Source of the DNA: Hirschia maritima DSM 19733
Lineage (GTDB): Bacteria > Pseudomonadota > Alphaproteobacteria > Caulobacterales > Hyphomonadaceae
Reading direction: 5' to 3'
DNA length: 64,000 nucleotides
Assembly: GCF_000378345.1 (NCBI RefSeq)
Contig: NZ_KB899546.1
Span: forward strand, 375,523 to 439,522
Position 1 is the first letter of the stretch, and each line of letters starts with the position of its first letter. The notes under the pieces were generated by a model that worked only from the letters and a program-made list of their open reading frames with translations, was not told the DNA's origin and made no database searches. The position numbers were made by a program, and so were the translations under genes. This document shows, piece after piece, positions 18,472 through 23,055 of the stretch.

Positions 18472-20155
18472 CAGATGTGCCCTCCAGGTCAACGAATGCA
18501 GCTTCAGCTGCTTCTAAGTTATCGAGTTCACCCTCGAATTCGGCTTCTGCAGCTTCAAGTTCAGCGGCGCGTTTAGCGAGCTCTTCTTCAAGTACTTCTG
18601 CTTCGACCCAACCGGCAAGAACACGAGCGCGCAGGATGAATAGCTCGGCACCATCACGCGTCATCTCACCTTTTGGCAAAATCCCAGGCTGCCAACGAGA
18701 CTTGCCTTTTGCGTCTGGTTCTTTCCAACCTACAAGATCGTCTGGAACCAATCCGGCTAAGTCATCAATTGTTTTGATGCCTTCATCCCCGAAACGAACA
18801 GACATTTGAGGTGTCACACCATCCATAAAGGCGACATCGTCCGTTACGCCAAGATCTTTACGTTTCTTGTCGAGTGCGGCTGCCAATAGGTCTAGATATT
18901 CACGAGCACGTGTTTGAAGCTCTGTTGCGACTGCTTCGTCAAATCCATCGATAGAAGCAAAGTCTTCAATGTCGACATAAGCGATTTCTTCAATAGTCTC
19001 AAAACCTTCAGAAGCAAGCAGCTGAGCCAGCATTTCATCAGCATCAAGTGCGCGCATAAACAATGCAGTACGTTCTTGGAATTCTTTCTGACGACGCTCG
19101 GAGTCTTGTGCTTCTGTTGTTAGATCAATTTGCCAGCCCGTTAATTGAGAAGCTAGACGAACATTTTGACCACGACGACCAATTGCTAGTGGGAATTGGC
19201 TTTCCTCTACAACAACTTCAACGCGCTCTTCATCTTCATCCACAACAACCTTAGAAACTTCGGCAGGTTGAAGTGCGTTCACAATAAATGTGGCTTCATC
19301 CTCAGACCAAGGAATGATGTCGATTTTTTCGCCTTGAAGTTCGGATACAACTGCTTGCACACGTGCACCACGCATACCCACACATGCACCAACTGGATCA
19401 ACAGAGGCATCGTTTGATAGAACACCGATTTTGGCGCGTGAACCTGGGTCACGAGAACAGGCTTTGATTTCGATAACGCCTTCATATACTTCAGGCACTT
19501 CTTGCGAAAATAGTGCAACCATGAATGACGGGTGCGCGCGAGATAGAAATAGTTGAGGCCCTTTTTGTTCACGTGACACTTTATAAAGTATCGCACGAAC
19601 ACGATCACCAGCATTTAGGTTTTCGCGAGGTAGGCCGTCATTACGGCGAATAATACCTTCACCACGTCCAAGGTCTACAATGATATTGCCGTGCTCAACA
19701 CGCTTCACAATACCATTTATGATTTGGCCTTCTTTGTCCTTAAATTCTTCAAACTGACGTTCGCGCTCAGCATCTCTCACCTTACCAGTGATAACTTGTT
19801 TAGCTGTTTGGGCAGCGACACGGCCAAATTCGAAAGGTGGAAGAACTTCCCGAAATTCGGTTCCGATTTCGGCTTCTGAGTCCATTGCGCGACCTTCATC
19901 AAGTGTCAAATGGTGCGCAGGGTCTTCAACTTCTTCAACAACAGTTTGTACACGTACGATTGTTGTTTCACCTGTTTTGGGGTCAATCGTAACGCGAATA
20001 TCGTGCTCTTGTCCGTAACGAGAACGGGCAGCTTTCTGAATAGCTTCCGCCATTGCATCCAAAACGATCAGTTTGTCGATCTGTTTTTCGGCTGCCAATG
20101 TGTTCGCAATTGCCAGGATTTCCAGCTTGTTTGCTGAAACGCCGATGGTGCTCAT
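18437..20155 (-). CDS. nusA: transcription termination/antitermination factor NusA
   Basis: RNA-polymerase-binding factor that affects pausing, termination and rRNA antitermination. 572 residues: N-terminal polymerase-binding domain (YGQEHDIRVTIDPKTGE), S1 domain (IINGIVKRVEHGNIIVDLGRGEGIIRR), two KH domains (GACVGMRGARVQAVV and LAIGRRGQNVRLASQLTGW), and helix-hairpin-helix repeats toward an acidic tail. The start ATG overlaps the rimP stop as ATGA, a sign of coupled translation. Confidence 0.96.
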   Translation of the reverse strand: MSTIGVSANKLEILAIANTLAAEKQIDKLIVLDAMAEAIQKAARSRYGQEHDIRVTIDPKTGETTIVRVQTVVEEVEDPAHHLTLDEGRAMDSEAEIGTEFREVLPPFEFGRVAAQTAKQVITGKVRDAERERQFEEFKDKEGQIINGIVKRVEHGNIIVDLGRGEGIIRRNDGLPRENLNAGDRVRAILYKVSREQKGPQLFLSRAHPSFMVALFSQEVPEVYEGVIEIKACSRDPGSRAKIGVLSNDASVDPVGACVGMRGARVQAVVSELQGEKIDIIPWSEDEATFIVNALQPAEVSKVVVDEDEERVEVVVEESQFPLAIGRRGQNVRLASQLTGWQIDLTTEAQDSERRQKEFQERTALFMRALDADEMLAQLLASEGFETIEEIAYVDIEDFASIDGFDEAVATELQTRAREYLDLLAAALDKKRKDLGVTDDVAFMDGVTPQMSVRFGDEGIKTIDDLAGLVPDDLVGWKEPDAKGKSRWQPGILPKGEMTRDGAELFILRARVLAGWVEAEVLEEELAKRAAELEAAEAEFEGELDNLEAAEAAFVDLEGTSDDSEPAPETDE

Positions 20156-20763
20156 CAGTCATCCTCTCTTTGTGCTGCTTCATCGTCAGAATTGTCGATG
20201 TTCGCTTTGTTGTTGTTTTCTTCGTTTTCTAACTCATCAAATTGATCATCATCAACTTCAGGAGCTTGTCCACGTGATAATGCTTCTTCAATGAGGCGGT
20301 CAGTCATAACCAATGAAGCTTTGACCATCTCTGTTACTGCGATTTCTGCTTGGGATCCATCTTTTAGATCCATAGAGACAACGCCATTTGTTTCTTCTGT
20401 GATTGTACCATGAAAACGTCTGCGGCCATCTTTTGGAACACCGATTTCGACGCGGGCTTCGTGGGACACCCAATTAGCAAAGTCGCCTTCACGCGTAAGG
20501 GGGCGATCAATACCAGGAGAAGATACCTCCAGATTATACTCTGAAGGGATTGGATCTTCAACATCAAGAACAGGACCGATAGCGCGGGAAAGTTTGGCGC
20601 AATCTTCAACATCCATTGTGCCATCAGGCTTTTCCGCCATTATTTGCAGTATAGGCGTGTTGGCACCCATCATGCGCACACGCACAATGTCCAGTCCCAA
20701 GCTGTCGGCTTCGGGCTGAATAATATCTAGAATACGTTTTTCTATTTCAGATATAGCGCGCAA
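20155..20763 (-). CDS. rimP: ribosome maturation factor RimP
   Basis: 30S assembly factor and first gene of the nusA-infB operon. 202 residues: an alpha/beta N-terminal domain with DSLGLDIVRVRMMG and SRAIGPVLDVEDPIPSEYNLEVSSPGIDRPL (family signature) and an SH3-like C-terminal domain; an Asp/Glu/Asn-rich tail is added. The only usable start is TTG at 20763, since an in-frame stop lies 24 bp upstream; this weak start may limit expression. A hairpin with a T tract lies about 40 bp upstream. Confidence 0.92.
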   Translation of the reverse strand: MRAISEIEKRILDIIQPEADSLGLDIVRVRMMGANTPILQIMAEKPDGTMDVEDCAKLSRAIGPVLDVEDPIPSEYNLEVSSPGIDRPLTREGDFANWVSHEARVEIGVPKDGRRRFHGTITEETNGVVSMDLKDGSQAEIAVTEMVKASLVMTDRLIEEALSRGQAPEVDDDQFDELENEENNNKANIDNSDDEAAQREDD

Positions 20764-20803
20764 TGGAAATCCAATGAATGTAGTTCAAGTTGGTAACTGG
20801 AAC

Positions 20804-20838
20804 GAAAAGCGGCGGCCCAGATAGTCTGAGCCGCCGCT
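20804..20838 (-). promoter_or_regulatory. candidate attenuator hairpin in the rimP-nusA-infB leader
   Basis: AGCGGCGGC (20808-20816) pairs perfectly with GCCGCCGCT (20830-20838), followed by TTTT on the minus strand. No minus-strand gene lies just upstream, so it cannot be an ordinary gene-end terminator on that strand. A leader terminator would fit autoregulation by NusA, as known for the E. coli nusA operon. It could instead serve a plus-strand transcript. Confidence 0.6.
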
Positions 20839-21083
20839 GTTTAATTTCAGCAATTGAGAGCCTGTATATTCCATAATTGCTTTACTGTCGAGTAGGGCTG
20901 GAGAGAAATCTAAATTGGATTGCAGATGTTGAAGTATTTAAGTGGAATACTCGATATTTACTTTGATTTACTTCTTAAAACAGTCTCGTAATTCGTAAAG
21001 GTAAATATATAGCCACCTTTTGTTAACCTTGTTCTTGTATGAATGAAGAAAACTAAAAAGACATATAGAGGTTGGCTGGGACA
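20839..21083. other. divergent intergenic region between rimP and the pseudo-receiver genes
   Basis: AT-rich, without reading frames or tRNA. It should hold the promoter of the minus-strand rimP operon and of the plus-strand gene at 21084. I saw no named operator. Confidence 0.45.
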
Positions 21084-21659
21084 ATGAGTGGTAAAAGCTC
21101 AACAATAAATGGTTTGGAGGTTTTGGAGTTTGTAGCTCCTAAAAGAGACCCCAAAAATCAAGAAGTACTCATTTTTTCTTTGAACAGAGACATGGTACGA
21201 ATGCAAAAGGATATGTTGCGCTCAACGGGCGTTAGAAAGATATCCTATGCGCACAATCTAGATGATTTTAAAGTTCTTATTTACACTCGATCTTTTGGAA
21301 CAATATTGATCAATGAGGATGTGAATCTTGATCCAGAGAAGATGATTGCGATGATCAGGGATTACAAGCAGTCAGTTGATCCTTTTGCGCAAGTTATTTT
21401 TATTACATCTACATGCACAGAAGCGCTTGTGAAGCTTACTATACGAACAGGGTATGATTCCATTTTAAGATTACCATTATCAAAAGCGCGTCTGTGGAAA
21501 ACCATTGAACAAATTTGCCAAACGGAGCGCAATTTCGTGCGGATTGGGCAATATTTTGGGCCTGATCGTCGCAAAGACAAGGCGCAACGCGTGGGTGCGG
21601 CGGAAGAACGTCGCAGGACCGAATTACAAAATGGCAATCGACTAAATCGAACAGGTTGA
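21084..21659 (+). CDS. degenerate receiver-domain protein, copy 1
   Basis: 191 residues that thread as a CheY-like receiver with a C-terminal FGPDRR tail. Beta-strand order can be followed: EVLIFSLN, KISYAH, GTILINE, QVIFITS, SILRLPL. The phospho-acceptor Asp position holds Asn77, the acidic pair after strand 1 is absent, and the conserved Lys after strand 5 is Leu130, so phosphorylation is unlikely. The Thr/Ser of strand 4 (Thr108-Ser109) is kept. The WKTIEQI helix and FGPDRR motif are of a kind I associate with small alphaproteobacterial response regulators. ATG 21084 fits better than the upstream TTG. It is followed by a paralogue. Confidence 0.65.
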   Translation: MSGKSSTINGLEVLEFVAPKRDPKNQEVLIFSLNRDMVRMQKDMLRSTGVRKISYAHNLDDFKVLIYTRSFGTILINEDVNLDPEKMIAMIRDYKQSVDPFAQVIFITSTCTEALVKLTIRTGYDSILRLPLSKARLWKTIEQICQTERNFVRIGQYFGPDRRKDKAQRVGAAEERRRTELQNGNRLNRTG

Positions 21660-21790
21660 ATGTTGTGAGTGGAATGCCGAAAAATGCAACATTTTCAGGT
21701 GATTTCGAAATAACGTAAACAAATCGACACGATATATTAACACTATCTGGGCAGCGTTGTTCAACGTCCGATGAATTGAGGGAGGGGCCA

Positions 21791-22339
21791 GTGATAGAAA
21801 AATTTGATGCTCCTATGAGAGATCCGAAAGACCAACAAGTTCTCATTTATAGTGAGAATATAGAATTGGTCCGTATGCAGCGTGATATGCTGAAATCCTA
21901 TCGGGTGAGAGAGATATTGGCGGCTAATAGTCCTGAAGAATTGATGGATATTTCTTCAACGCATGCATTGGGCACAATATTGGTGAATGCCAATAGTCAG
22001 GTCGATCCAAGAAAAATTATTGCAGCACTAAGAAATCATGAAAAGGTGAGAGACCCTTTTGCGCAGATATTTTTTGTGACGGGTAGTAGTTCAGCTCAAC
22101 TGATAAACATGATTATCCGATCAGGATATGATGGGATATTGTGTCTTCCTTTCTCACGCGCGCGTTTATGGAAAACGATAGAACGTATGAGTCAGACTCG
22201 ACGAAAATTTGTCAGAGTTGGGGAGTATTTTGGTCCCGATCGTCGAGCCGCTCAATCGGTAAAGCGCCCAGTGACGGAAGAGCGTCGCAAGGAAGAGCTT
22301 TTGAAGAAAACTGGGCTGGCTAGCAAAGAGGCGAGTTAG
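21791..22339 (+). CDS. degenerate receiver-domain protein, copy 2
   Basis: 182 residues, clearly paralogous to the previous gene: shared blocks include RDPKxQxVLIxS, VRMQxDML, GTILxN, DPFAQ, RLWKTIE and FVRxGxYFGPDRR. Again the phospho-acceptor is Asn (TILVNAN) and the strand-5 Lys is missing (LCLPFSRARL). The start is GTG at 21791 behind a strong GGAGG at 21781-21785. The C-terminal tail is charged (EERRKEELLKK). The two genes probably arose by tandem duplication and may act together as a heterodimer, which is inference. The stop overlaps that of trmB. Confidence 0.65.
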   Translation: MIEKFDAPMRDPKDQQVLIYSENIELVRMQRDMLKSYRVREILAANSPEELMDISSTHALGTILVNANSQVDPRKIIAALRNHEKVRDPFAQIFFVTGSSSAQLINMIIRSGYDGILCLPFSRARLWKTIERMSQTRRKFVRVGEYFGPDRRAAQSVKRPVTEERRKEELLKKTGLASKEAS

Positions 22340-23055
22340 ACTTTTACAAAGTCCAAAAACACAGGCTTACAGTCGCCTAATCCCTTCATTTGATAACGTG
22401 TTGTGATGTGATCTTCAGGTGGAATACGCCAATCATCTGCTTGGTTGGCGGTCCATTCAAAATCATCAGACGCTTCAAACTTTTCTAACGCCCAATCGGC
22501 GTAGTTTGCCCAATCGGTTGCAAATCGAACTTGCCCGCCCTTTTTTAGAACACGGGCGAGGGTTTGCAAAAACTCAACCTGAATTAAACGACGCTTATGG
22601 TGCTTTGCCTTGTGCCAAGGATCGGGAAACATAATGAAGACGCGGTCCAGGCTGTTGTCGGATAGTGCGTCTAGAATATCCCGTGCGTCATCTGCGTGCA
22701 GGCGGATATTTTTGATTTTGTTTTCCCAGATTTGCGTTACCGCTTTTGCGACACCTTCAAGGAATGGTTCGCAGCCGATAATGCCAAAGTCAGGGTGTTT
22801 TTGTGCCTGACCGATTAGATGCTCCGCGCCTCCAAAACCAATTTCGAACCAAACTTCACGCGGTGAATGGGTAAATAATGTATCAGGTGCAAGATTGGCT
22901 TTGTGGTCTTTGGTATCAATGGCGTATTTGGGAAGCTCTTCATCCATCAGTTTTTGCTGACGTGCTGAAAGAGGGCGGCCTCCAGTTCGACCAAAAGTAC
23001 GCAATGGACCAAATTCAGATCCATTGCTTTTCTTGTGTTTGTCTTCGCCAGTCAT
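22336..23055 (-). CDS. trmB: tRNA (guanine(46)-N7)-methyltransferase
   Basis: SAM-dependent enzyme making m7G46 in the tRNA variable loop. 239 residues. The family motifs are EIGFGGAEHL (SAM site, a variant of EIGFGxGE), IGCEPFLEGV, and the tRNA-binding FPDPWHKAKHHKRRL. The N-terminal region RTFGRTGGRPLSARQ is also typical of alphaproteobacterial copies. It sits downstream of metK on the same strand. Confidence 0.95.
   Translation of the reverse strand: MTGEDKHKKSNGSEFGPLRTFGRTGGRPLSARQQKLMDEELPKYAIDTKDHKANLAPDTLFTHSPREVWFEIGFGGAEHLIGQAQKHPDFGIIGCEPFLEGVAKAVTQIWENKIKNIRLHADDARDILDALSDNSLDRVFIMFPDPWHKAKHHKRRLIQVEFLQTLARVLKKGGQVRFATDWANYADWALEKFEASDDFEWTANQADDWRIPPEDHITTRYQMKGLGDCKPVFLDFVKV

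Follow-up and report, generated by a model that had tools for sequence, protein, structure and literature searches.

A tandem pair of Cle-type pseudo-receivers in Hirschia maritima and its possible control by c-di-GMP

The DNA analysed here, a 64,000-nucleotide stretch of contig NZ_KB899546.1 from the genome of Hirschia maritima DSM 19733 (hereafter the window), contains two adjacent genes, P1 and P2 (Table 1), whose products are 48% identical and combine a CheY-like receiver with an arginine-rich C-terminal tail. The first-pass annotation of this DNA described them as a tandem pair of receiver-like proteins that have lost the phosphorylation site. P1 and P2 are almost certainly Cle-type proteins, a family described in Caulobacter crescentus, and offer a natural example of receivers that have lost several residues of the phosphate machinery but retain a tail of known ligand-binding type.

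Receiver fold, phosphorylation site and tail of P1 and P2

AlphaFold2 models, built on alignments of 55 family rows, reached mean predicted local distance difference test (pLDDT) scores of 89.4 for P1 and 89.5 for P2. The order of strands and helices in both models is that of a receiver, with an extra N-terminal strand and a C-terminal pair of strands. Foldseek matched both models to CheY and other receivers with a probability of 1.00 in the listed rows, where model residues 22–149 are aligned with CheY residues 2–128; if this alignment is gap-free, N77 of P1 corresponds to CheY position 57. The superposition on CheY that the annotation had proposed as a check was performed for P1 with VIA-align and gave Z scores of up to 17.4, with a root-mean-square deviation of 2.0 over 126 residues. 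According to the predicted models, both proteins thus contain a single CheY-like receiver, as Cle proteins do, and the receiver fold originally proposed from the sequence is confirmed at this level. Sequence searches returned lower scores: Pfam Response_reg matched the pair at 15.1 and 17.5 bits (cut-off 30.2), searches of Pfam and NCBIfam with both proteins gave only receiver-type matches, all below threshold, and a PDB sequence search with P1 gave a single row, CheY 9rhz, with an E value of 0.84.

An N-terminal extension (EKF or LEF, then P.RD; window positions 21084–21161 and 21791–21835) is common to P1, P2 and their relatives in another Hirschia genome, G033. It occurs in all four P1/P2-type sequences, is predicted with high confidence to be a strand and, in the models, may pack on the strands of the tail.

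The family set comprised 155 hidden Markov model hits filtered for a GPxRR-like motif, of which 105 rows were left after repeats had been dropped; removal of two further repeats (a gene counted in each of two overlapping loci, and a pair of near-identical records) gave 103 rows. The invariance of GPxRR in this set is partly built in by the filter; the flanking Arg, the Arg at +13 and the receiver residues were unfiltered. Asp occupies the acceptor column in 89 of the 103 rows, with Asn in seven, Glu in six and Ala in one (91, seven, six and one of the 105 rows before the two repeats were removed). The strand-5 Lys column contains Lys in 94 rows, Leu in six, all from Hirschia, Arg in two and Asp in one. 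The replacement of the acceptor Asp by Asn and of the strand-5 Lys by Leu, read from the sequence of both proteins in the annotation, was upheld by the family alignment, and none of the alignments made restored the acceptor Asp. The acidic pair had also been described as missing; this is correct for P1 (S32-L33) but not for P2 (S21-E22), one acid being retained by P2 and by its ortholog in G033. Both proteins still have the switch Thr (T108 in P1, T97 in P2). Lacking both the Asp and the Lys, P1 and P2 are not canonical phospho-accepting receivers; they agree with the definition of pseudo-receivers, i.e., a receiver fold without at least one of five catalytic residues, the Asp included (PMC12632262).

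The tail is of a known type. The Cle proteins of C. crescentus, CleA–CleE, are, like P1 and P2, stand-alone CheY-like receivers followed by an arginine-rich tail, the ARR, which starts with YxGPDRR behind a conserved Arg; the published consensus is a tandem [YF]xGP[DE][RK]R behind this Arg, and the Cle ARR binds c-di-GMP (cyclic di-GMP) (PMC5677366). The C-terminal FGPDRR recorded by the annotation is present in both proteins (residues 158–163 in P1, 147–152 in P2). A search for its family, also suggested there, led to the Cle-type ARR, whose consensus covers FGPDRR, so that its treatment as an unnamed motif was dropped. What the annotation overlooked is that this tail points to the Cle family and to c-di-GMP as the likely replacement signal.

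The first ARR motif is complete in both proteins (R149/YFGPDRR in P1, R138/YFGPDRR in P2), and its flanking Arg is found in all 105 family rows. The Arg at +13 is kept as well: Arg176 of P1 lies 13 residues past Arg163 and Arg165 of P2 lies 13 past Arg152, which is the distance between R156 and R169 of CleD in our own numbering. In 92 of 105 rows an Arg or Lys stands 13 residues behind the second Arg of the first motif; these include P1, P2, a CleD-like row (locus L119) and a CleA-like row (locus L118). In a SUMO fusion of CleD the R156A exchange abolishes c-di-GMP binding and R169A lowers it about 5-fold; CleD is described as a monomer binding two c-di-GMP per chain (PMC5677366). The same source describes CleA D67A as still functional and CleA RR153AA as non-functional, and its CleD allele E70A implies a Glu at the acceptor position of CleD, matched by the Glu of the CleD-like row. 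The tail of another family member (locus L025) matches PDB entry 6sft, the CleD ARR, with an E value of 2.9e-4.

The H. maritima genome contains nine matches to P1, each of which combines a receiver with a GPxRR tail, and six of the nine keep Asp in the acceptor column; the seven paralogs besides P1 and P2 match with E values from 3.8e-18 to 7.9e-4. Three tandem Cle-like pairs are encoded in this genome, at C1:490656-491806 (L039), C5:71057-72462 (L043) and window positions 21084-22339, and one tandem pair has long, CleD-like C-terminal regions (308 and 311 amino acids). In the metagenome-assembled genome OFTM99, five Cle-like genes lie in a row on one contig (L084:2136-5796); two of them have Asn or Ala at the acceptor position and are placed outside the Hirschia clade described below.

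Evolution of the pair and its upstream elements

The phylogenetic tree comprised 93 of 106 rows, retained after a crude ungapped thinning at 85%, with one gene still present twice. Seven Hirschia sequences form a clade with support of 100/99: P1, P2, the P2 ortholog and a P1-like gene of G033, C1:511091 of the H. maritima genome, G033 1181174 and L010 of Hirschia sp. SP140 (G034). The clade persists after removal of the five switch columns and the whole tail, with a Shimodaira–Hasegawa-like approximate likelihood-ratio (SH-aLRT) support of 98 in a quick tree. It stands on a long branch, for which both trees give a warning, and its deeper placement is unsure. All seven sequences have Asn at the acceptor position and none has the Lys, indicating that these losses preceded the duplication that gave rise to P1 and P2. 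The annotation had suggested this order of events from the losses shared by the two copies, and the further Hirschia lineage within the clade (C1:511091, G033 1181174 and L010), with the same Asn and Leu, supports it. On the 93-row tree, with the labels of the truncated G033 P1-like gene assigned by hand, the acceptor column requires at least six changes and the Lys column four; change of the acceptor Asp is therefore recurrent across the family.

The P2 ortholog of G033 is 76% identical to P2 and stands alone at the same trmB/rimP locus, and in strain SP140 trmB adjoins rimP with no gene between them. P1 groups with the G033 P1-like gene (support 97/79), which suggests that the duplication probably predates the split from G033; this probable older age of the pair was likewise missed in the first reading. 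The G033 P1-like gene (L037:6050-6631) is located elsewhere in its genome, among genes for DUF3363, S26 peptidase, MerT-like, MerR and RND proteins. An in-frame stop precedes its tail, and YFGPDRR is still encoded in frame beyond the stop.

Among 398 genomes from the order, matches to P2 with E values better than 1e-30 were found only in its own genome and in G033. Weaker matches, at 1e-14 or better, occurred in G034 (on C2), G095 and G101, those of the last two being Cle genes that keep the Asp (L017 and L031). A scan of genome contigs, which may omit records close to H. maritima itself, gave 59 loci at 18–31% identity.

Comparison of P2 with its G033 ortholog gave a proportion of synonymous differences (pS) of 0.85, i.e., saturated synonymous sites, a proportion of nonsynonymous differences (pN) of 0.15 and a nonsynonymous divergence (dN) of 0.170, compared with a dN of 0.158 for trmB; by these sequence measures P2 has evolved under constraint between species. 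In a comparison of P1, P2 and the G033 P2, the Arg segments of the ARR are identical at 17 of 21 positions, the receiver at 50 of 120 and the linker and end at 3 of 24 (Arg segments versus receiver, Fisher p 0.0008, the test treating positions as independent, with segments picked by hand from the known motif in three sequences). By these counts no other part of the pair is as well conserved as the arginine segments.

A block of 26–27 bp is located 57 bp upstream of the start codon of P1 and 50 bp upstream of that of P2, and a matching block lies at the corresponding site in front of the G033 P2 (pairwise identities 70–81%). The P1 element is 81% identical to the G033 sequence over 27 bp, and the P2 element is 81% identical to it over 26 bp. 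A pattern of the element occurs at only two places in the H. maritima assembly, to which the search was confined, at up to three mismatches, and a reversed control occurs at none; the pattern was built from the three upstream regions, so that these two matches are expected by construction and the result is the absence of others. Most of the element is missing from the G033 P1-like gene. Each of P1 and P2 may therefore have its own promoter, copied along with the gene. No excess of sigma-70-type sites was found (4 versus 3.9 expected). A pattern search for CtrA sites (TTAA-N7-TTAA and some one-mismatch forms) detected none upstream of P1, P2 or the G033 P2 ortholog; one-mismatch forms are present upstream of two other H. 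maritima Cle genes.

Proposed switch and its alternatives

We propose, with a probability of about 0.6, that the two Cle-type pseudo-receivers respond to c-di-GMP and not to phosphate and act at the flagellar motor. In such proteins, with the phosphate switch dismantled, c-di-GMP produced by the diguanylate cyclases of the cell would bind to the arginines of the tail. The bound tail would pack onto the receiver and make its alpha4-beta5-alpha5 face fit for docking on the N-terminal region of FliM, altering motor behaviour at the change from swimming to attachment, and kinase input would be unnecessary. P1 and P2 would be separately transcribed, co-regulated copies, and divergence in the linker and end of their tails may have given them different affinities or partners. 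Binding of c-di-GMP is, from the tail sequences, probable; the motor as the target is about an even bet. The genome encodes the presumed components: eight GGDEF and five CheW-domain matches were found, and its single FliM match reads LNQDEIDSLL about 53 residues into the open frame. The CheY-docking motif of FliM is LSQxEIDxLL (PMC5677366); in C. crescentus, FliM ID57WA is the form with this motif mutated.

Several observations weigh against this proposal. The tail past the first motif is modelled at block pLDDT values of only 54–67, and the second motif lacks [YF]xGP, reading VGAAEERR in P1 and PVTEERR in P2. Neither tail matches 6sft by sequence in the PDB search, where the P1 tail retrieved just ribosomal S9 at an E value of 2.6 or worse and the P2 tail retrieved nothing. 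Only about 14–16 residues follow EERR in P1 and P2, and the CleA ARR is reported to bind c-di-GMP in vitro only together with the C-terminal region; in addition, Arg167 of CleA (the +13 Arg) is dispensable for polar localisation, whereas R169 of CleD is needed (PMC5677366). The alpha4 Arg column, with Arg in 83 of 103 rows, is occupied by Ile or Val in the pair and in the G033 ortholog of P2, with an Arg one residue further on. Taken whole, the tail is less conserved between P2 and its G033 ortholog (66% of 47 codons) than the receiver (80% of 135 codons), and flagellar and chemotaxis genes are absent among the genes named in the 15–27 kb part of the window. As to the second motif, a looser [YF]xG test is failed by 22 of 105 rows, the CleA-like row included, so that this motif is a consensus and not a strict requirement; the alpha4 Arg is also missing from three H. 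maritima paralogs that keep the Asp. Given these findings on CleA and CleD, the c-di-GMP model may hold for such a tail.

The main alternative is that P1 and P2 no longer bind c-di-GMP to a useful extent and act as constitutive dockers or competitors at the CheY/Cle site of FliM, their effect being set by their amount, for which a separate upstream element in front of each gene would be suitable. Speaking for it are the degenerate second ARR half in both proteins, the failure of the tails to match 6sft, the shifted alpha4 Arg and the lack of the long C-terminal region on which CleA depends in vitro. Speaking against it, the arginine segments of both tail halves are better conserved than any other part of the pair, and the CleA-like row deviates in its second half in a similar way, with the +13 Arg kept, although c-di-GMP is bound by CleA when its C-terminal region is present. 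The CleA RR153AA form is moreover described as dead (PMC5677366). We consider this alternative a real but minor possibility. It is unlikely that P1 and P2 are c-di-GMP sensors for a non-motor target in attachment or polarity, possibly as a P1–P2 heterodimer with one Arg clamp contributed by each tail: each protein carries both Arg clusters, and CleD is a monomer with two c-di-GMP per chain (PMC5677366), although a genus-private clade on a long branch, the predicted strand of the N-terminal extension in the four P1/P2-type sequences and the use of the alpha4-beta5-alpha5 side as the dimer face in many pseudo-receivers (PMC12632262) would be consistent with such a role.

Decay of a redundant Cle copy, drifting once the phosphosite was lost, could account for the long branch and for the in-frame stop ahead of the tail in the G033 P1-like gene. 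The constraint on P2 between species, the intact reading frames of both genes in H. maritima and the conservation of the tail segments and of the upstream element make this very improbable. Continued phosphorylation, e.g., after deamidation of the Asn back to Asp, is hardly conceivable: reversion of Asn to Asp at this position has been reported for a receiver (PMC4395418) and both proteins retain the switch Thr, but the seven clade rows have also lost the Lys and one or both members of the acidic pair.

As Cle-type pseudo-receivers responding to c-di-GMP, P1 and P2 would resemble CleA and CleD, which are described as functioning without a need for phosphate (PMC5677366), and the H. maritima FliM has a docking sequence. 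In P1 and P2, unlike in Cle proteins, the acceptor Asp and the strand-5 Lys have been lost together with one or both of the acidic residues: the Asp (D67) is still present in CleA, and the CleD-like row has Glu yet retains the Lys. They further differ in the second ARR motif without [YF]xGP, in the position of the alpha4 Arg one residue off and in the added, predicted N-terminal strand. The CleA-like row, from C. vibrioides T5M6, was taken as CleA by its place beside cheD, cheY, cheB, cheR, cheW and a cheA-type gene. Like P1 and P2, it has the first motif (YIGPDRR) and a second half cut to an Arg pair at +13/+14; unlike them, it keeps Asp and Lys, its C-terminal region is longer and it is part of a che cluster.

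Absence of the acceptor Asp and other catalytic residues is shared with the pseudo-receivers and aspartate-less receivers covered in PMC12632262 and PMC4395418. Many of those named there are transcription regulators or parts of larger proteins, whereas P1 and P2 are stand-alone and carry a recognisable tail of the second-messenger type. In ShkA of Caulobacter a pseudo-receiver is linked to c-di-GMP through the alpha4-beta5-alpha5 side (PMC12632262), as proposed for P1 and P2; ShkA is, however, a hybrid histidine kinase with c-di-GMP on the pseudo-receiver itself, while in P1 and P2 the presumed site is a separate tail.

The Cle proteins, and CleD without an Asp, are already known; new are the genus-private clade, the loss of the phosphate switch at multiple positions, the reduced second ARR half and the tandem pair. 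A text search of the papers available to the analysis found neither FGPDRR nor Hirschia together with CheY-like, and no paper on such Hirschia proteins was recognised by title or abstract start among the matches listed for Cle/FliM, Hirschia, and pseudo-receiver with c-di-GMP. A 2025 review calls the switching mechanisms of bacterial pseudo-receivers a mystery and names five examples under the control of a ligand, which in one of them is c-di-GMP (PMC12632262); the terms CleD, Nesper, CheY-like and arginine-rich are absent from its main text. Since the phosphate machinery is lost in P1 and P2 and a ligand-type tail is kept, the replacement input is directly testable with purified protein. If true, the proposed switch would support what Nesper et al. 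suggested, namely that the Cle proteins have abandoned phosphorylation (PMC5677366), the residues themselves being gone in Hirschia. A more elaborate form of this idea, a pure second-messenger switch with the detachable c-di-GMP tail as the sole input and P1 and P2 as a co-regulated two-subunit sensor, with Arg clamps from each tail and an N-terminal strand holding the tail on the receiver, is improbable.

Genomic setting

The positions of P1 and P2, their diagnostic residues, upstream elements and flanking genes are listed in Table 1.

Table 1. Features of the P1/P2 locus (window coordinates).
Feature	Position	Strand	Basis
P1, Cle-type pseudo-receiver (almost certain), 191 amino acids	21084..21659	+	fold, sequence, family matches
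P2, Cle-type pseudo-receiver (almost certain), 182 amino acids, GTG start at 21791	21791..22339	+	
P1 acceptor position, Asn77 replacing Asp	21312..21314	+	family alignment
P2 acceptor position, Asn66 replacing Asp	21986..21988	+	family alignment
P1 strand-5 Lys position, Leu130	21471..21473	+	family alignment
P2 strand-5 Lys position, Leu119	22145..22147	+	family alignment
P1 ARR-like tail: flanking Arg149, YFGPDRR (157-163), EERR (174-177)	21528..21614	+	
P2 ARR-like tail: flanking Arg138, YFGPDRR (146-152), EERR (163-166)	22202..22288	+	
26-bp element 5' of P1, possible promoter or regulator site	21001..21026	+	sequence comparison
26-bp element 5' of P2	21715..21740	+	sequence comparison
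rimP, one flank of the pair	20155-20763	-	
trmB-type methyltransferase gene, other flank of the pair	22336-23055	-	

A Pfam scan of nine neighbouring genes identified infB, ylxR, nusA, rimP, a tRNA-type methyltransferase gene, metK, a fabB-type gene, fabA and an SH3 gene. All nine names are housekeeping ones, which ruled out a chemotaxis-gene setting for P1 and P2. An Rfam search of positions 20600-22500 gave two matches, both under their gathering scores. Upstream of rimP-nusA-infB, on the minus strand, a strong GC-rich hairpin followed by a T-rich stretch is located at positions 20797-20851; it corresponds to no Rfam family above the gathering score, and this 55-bp block is 89% identical in G033.
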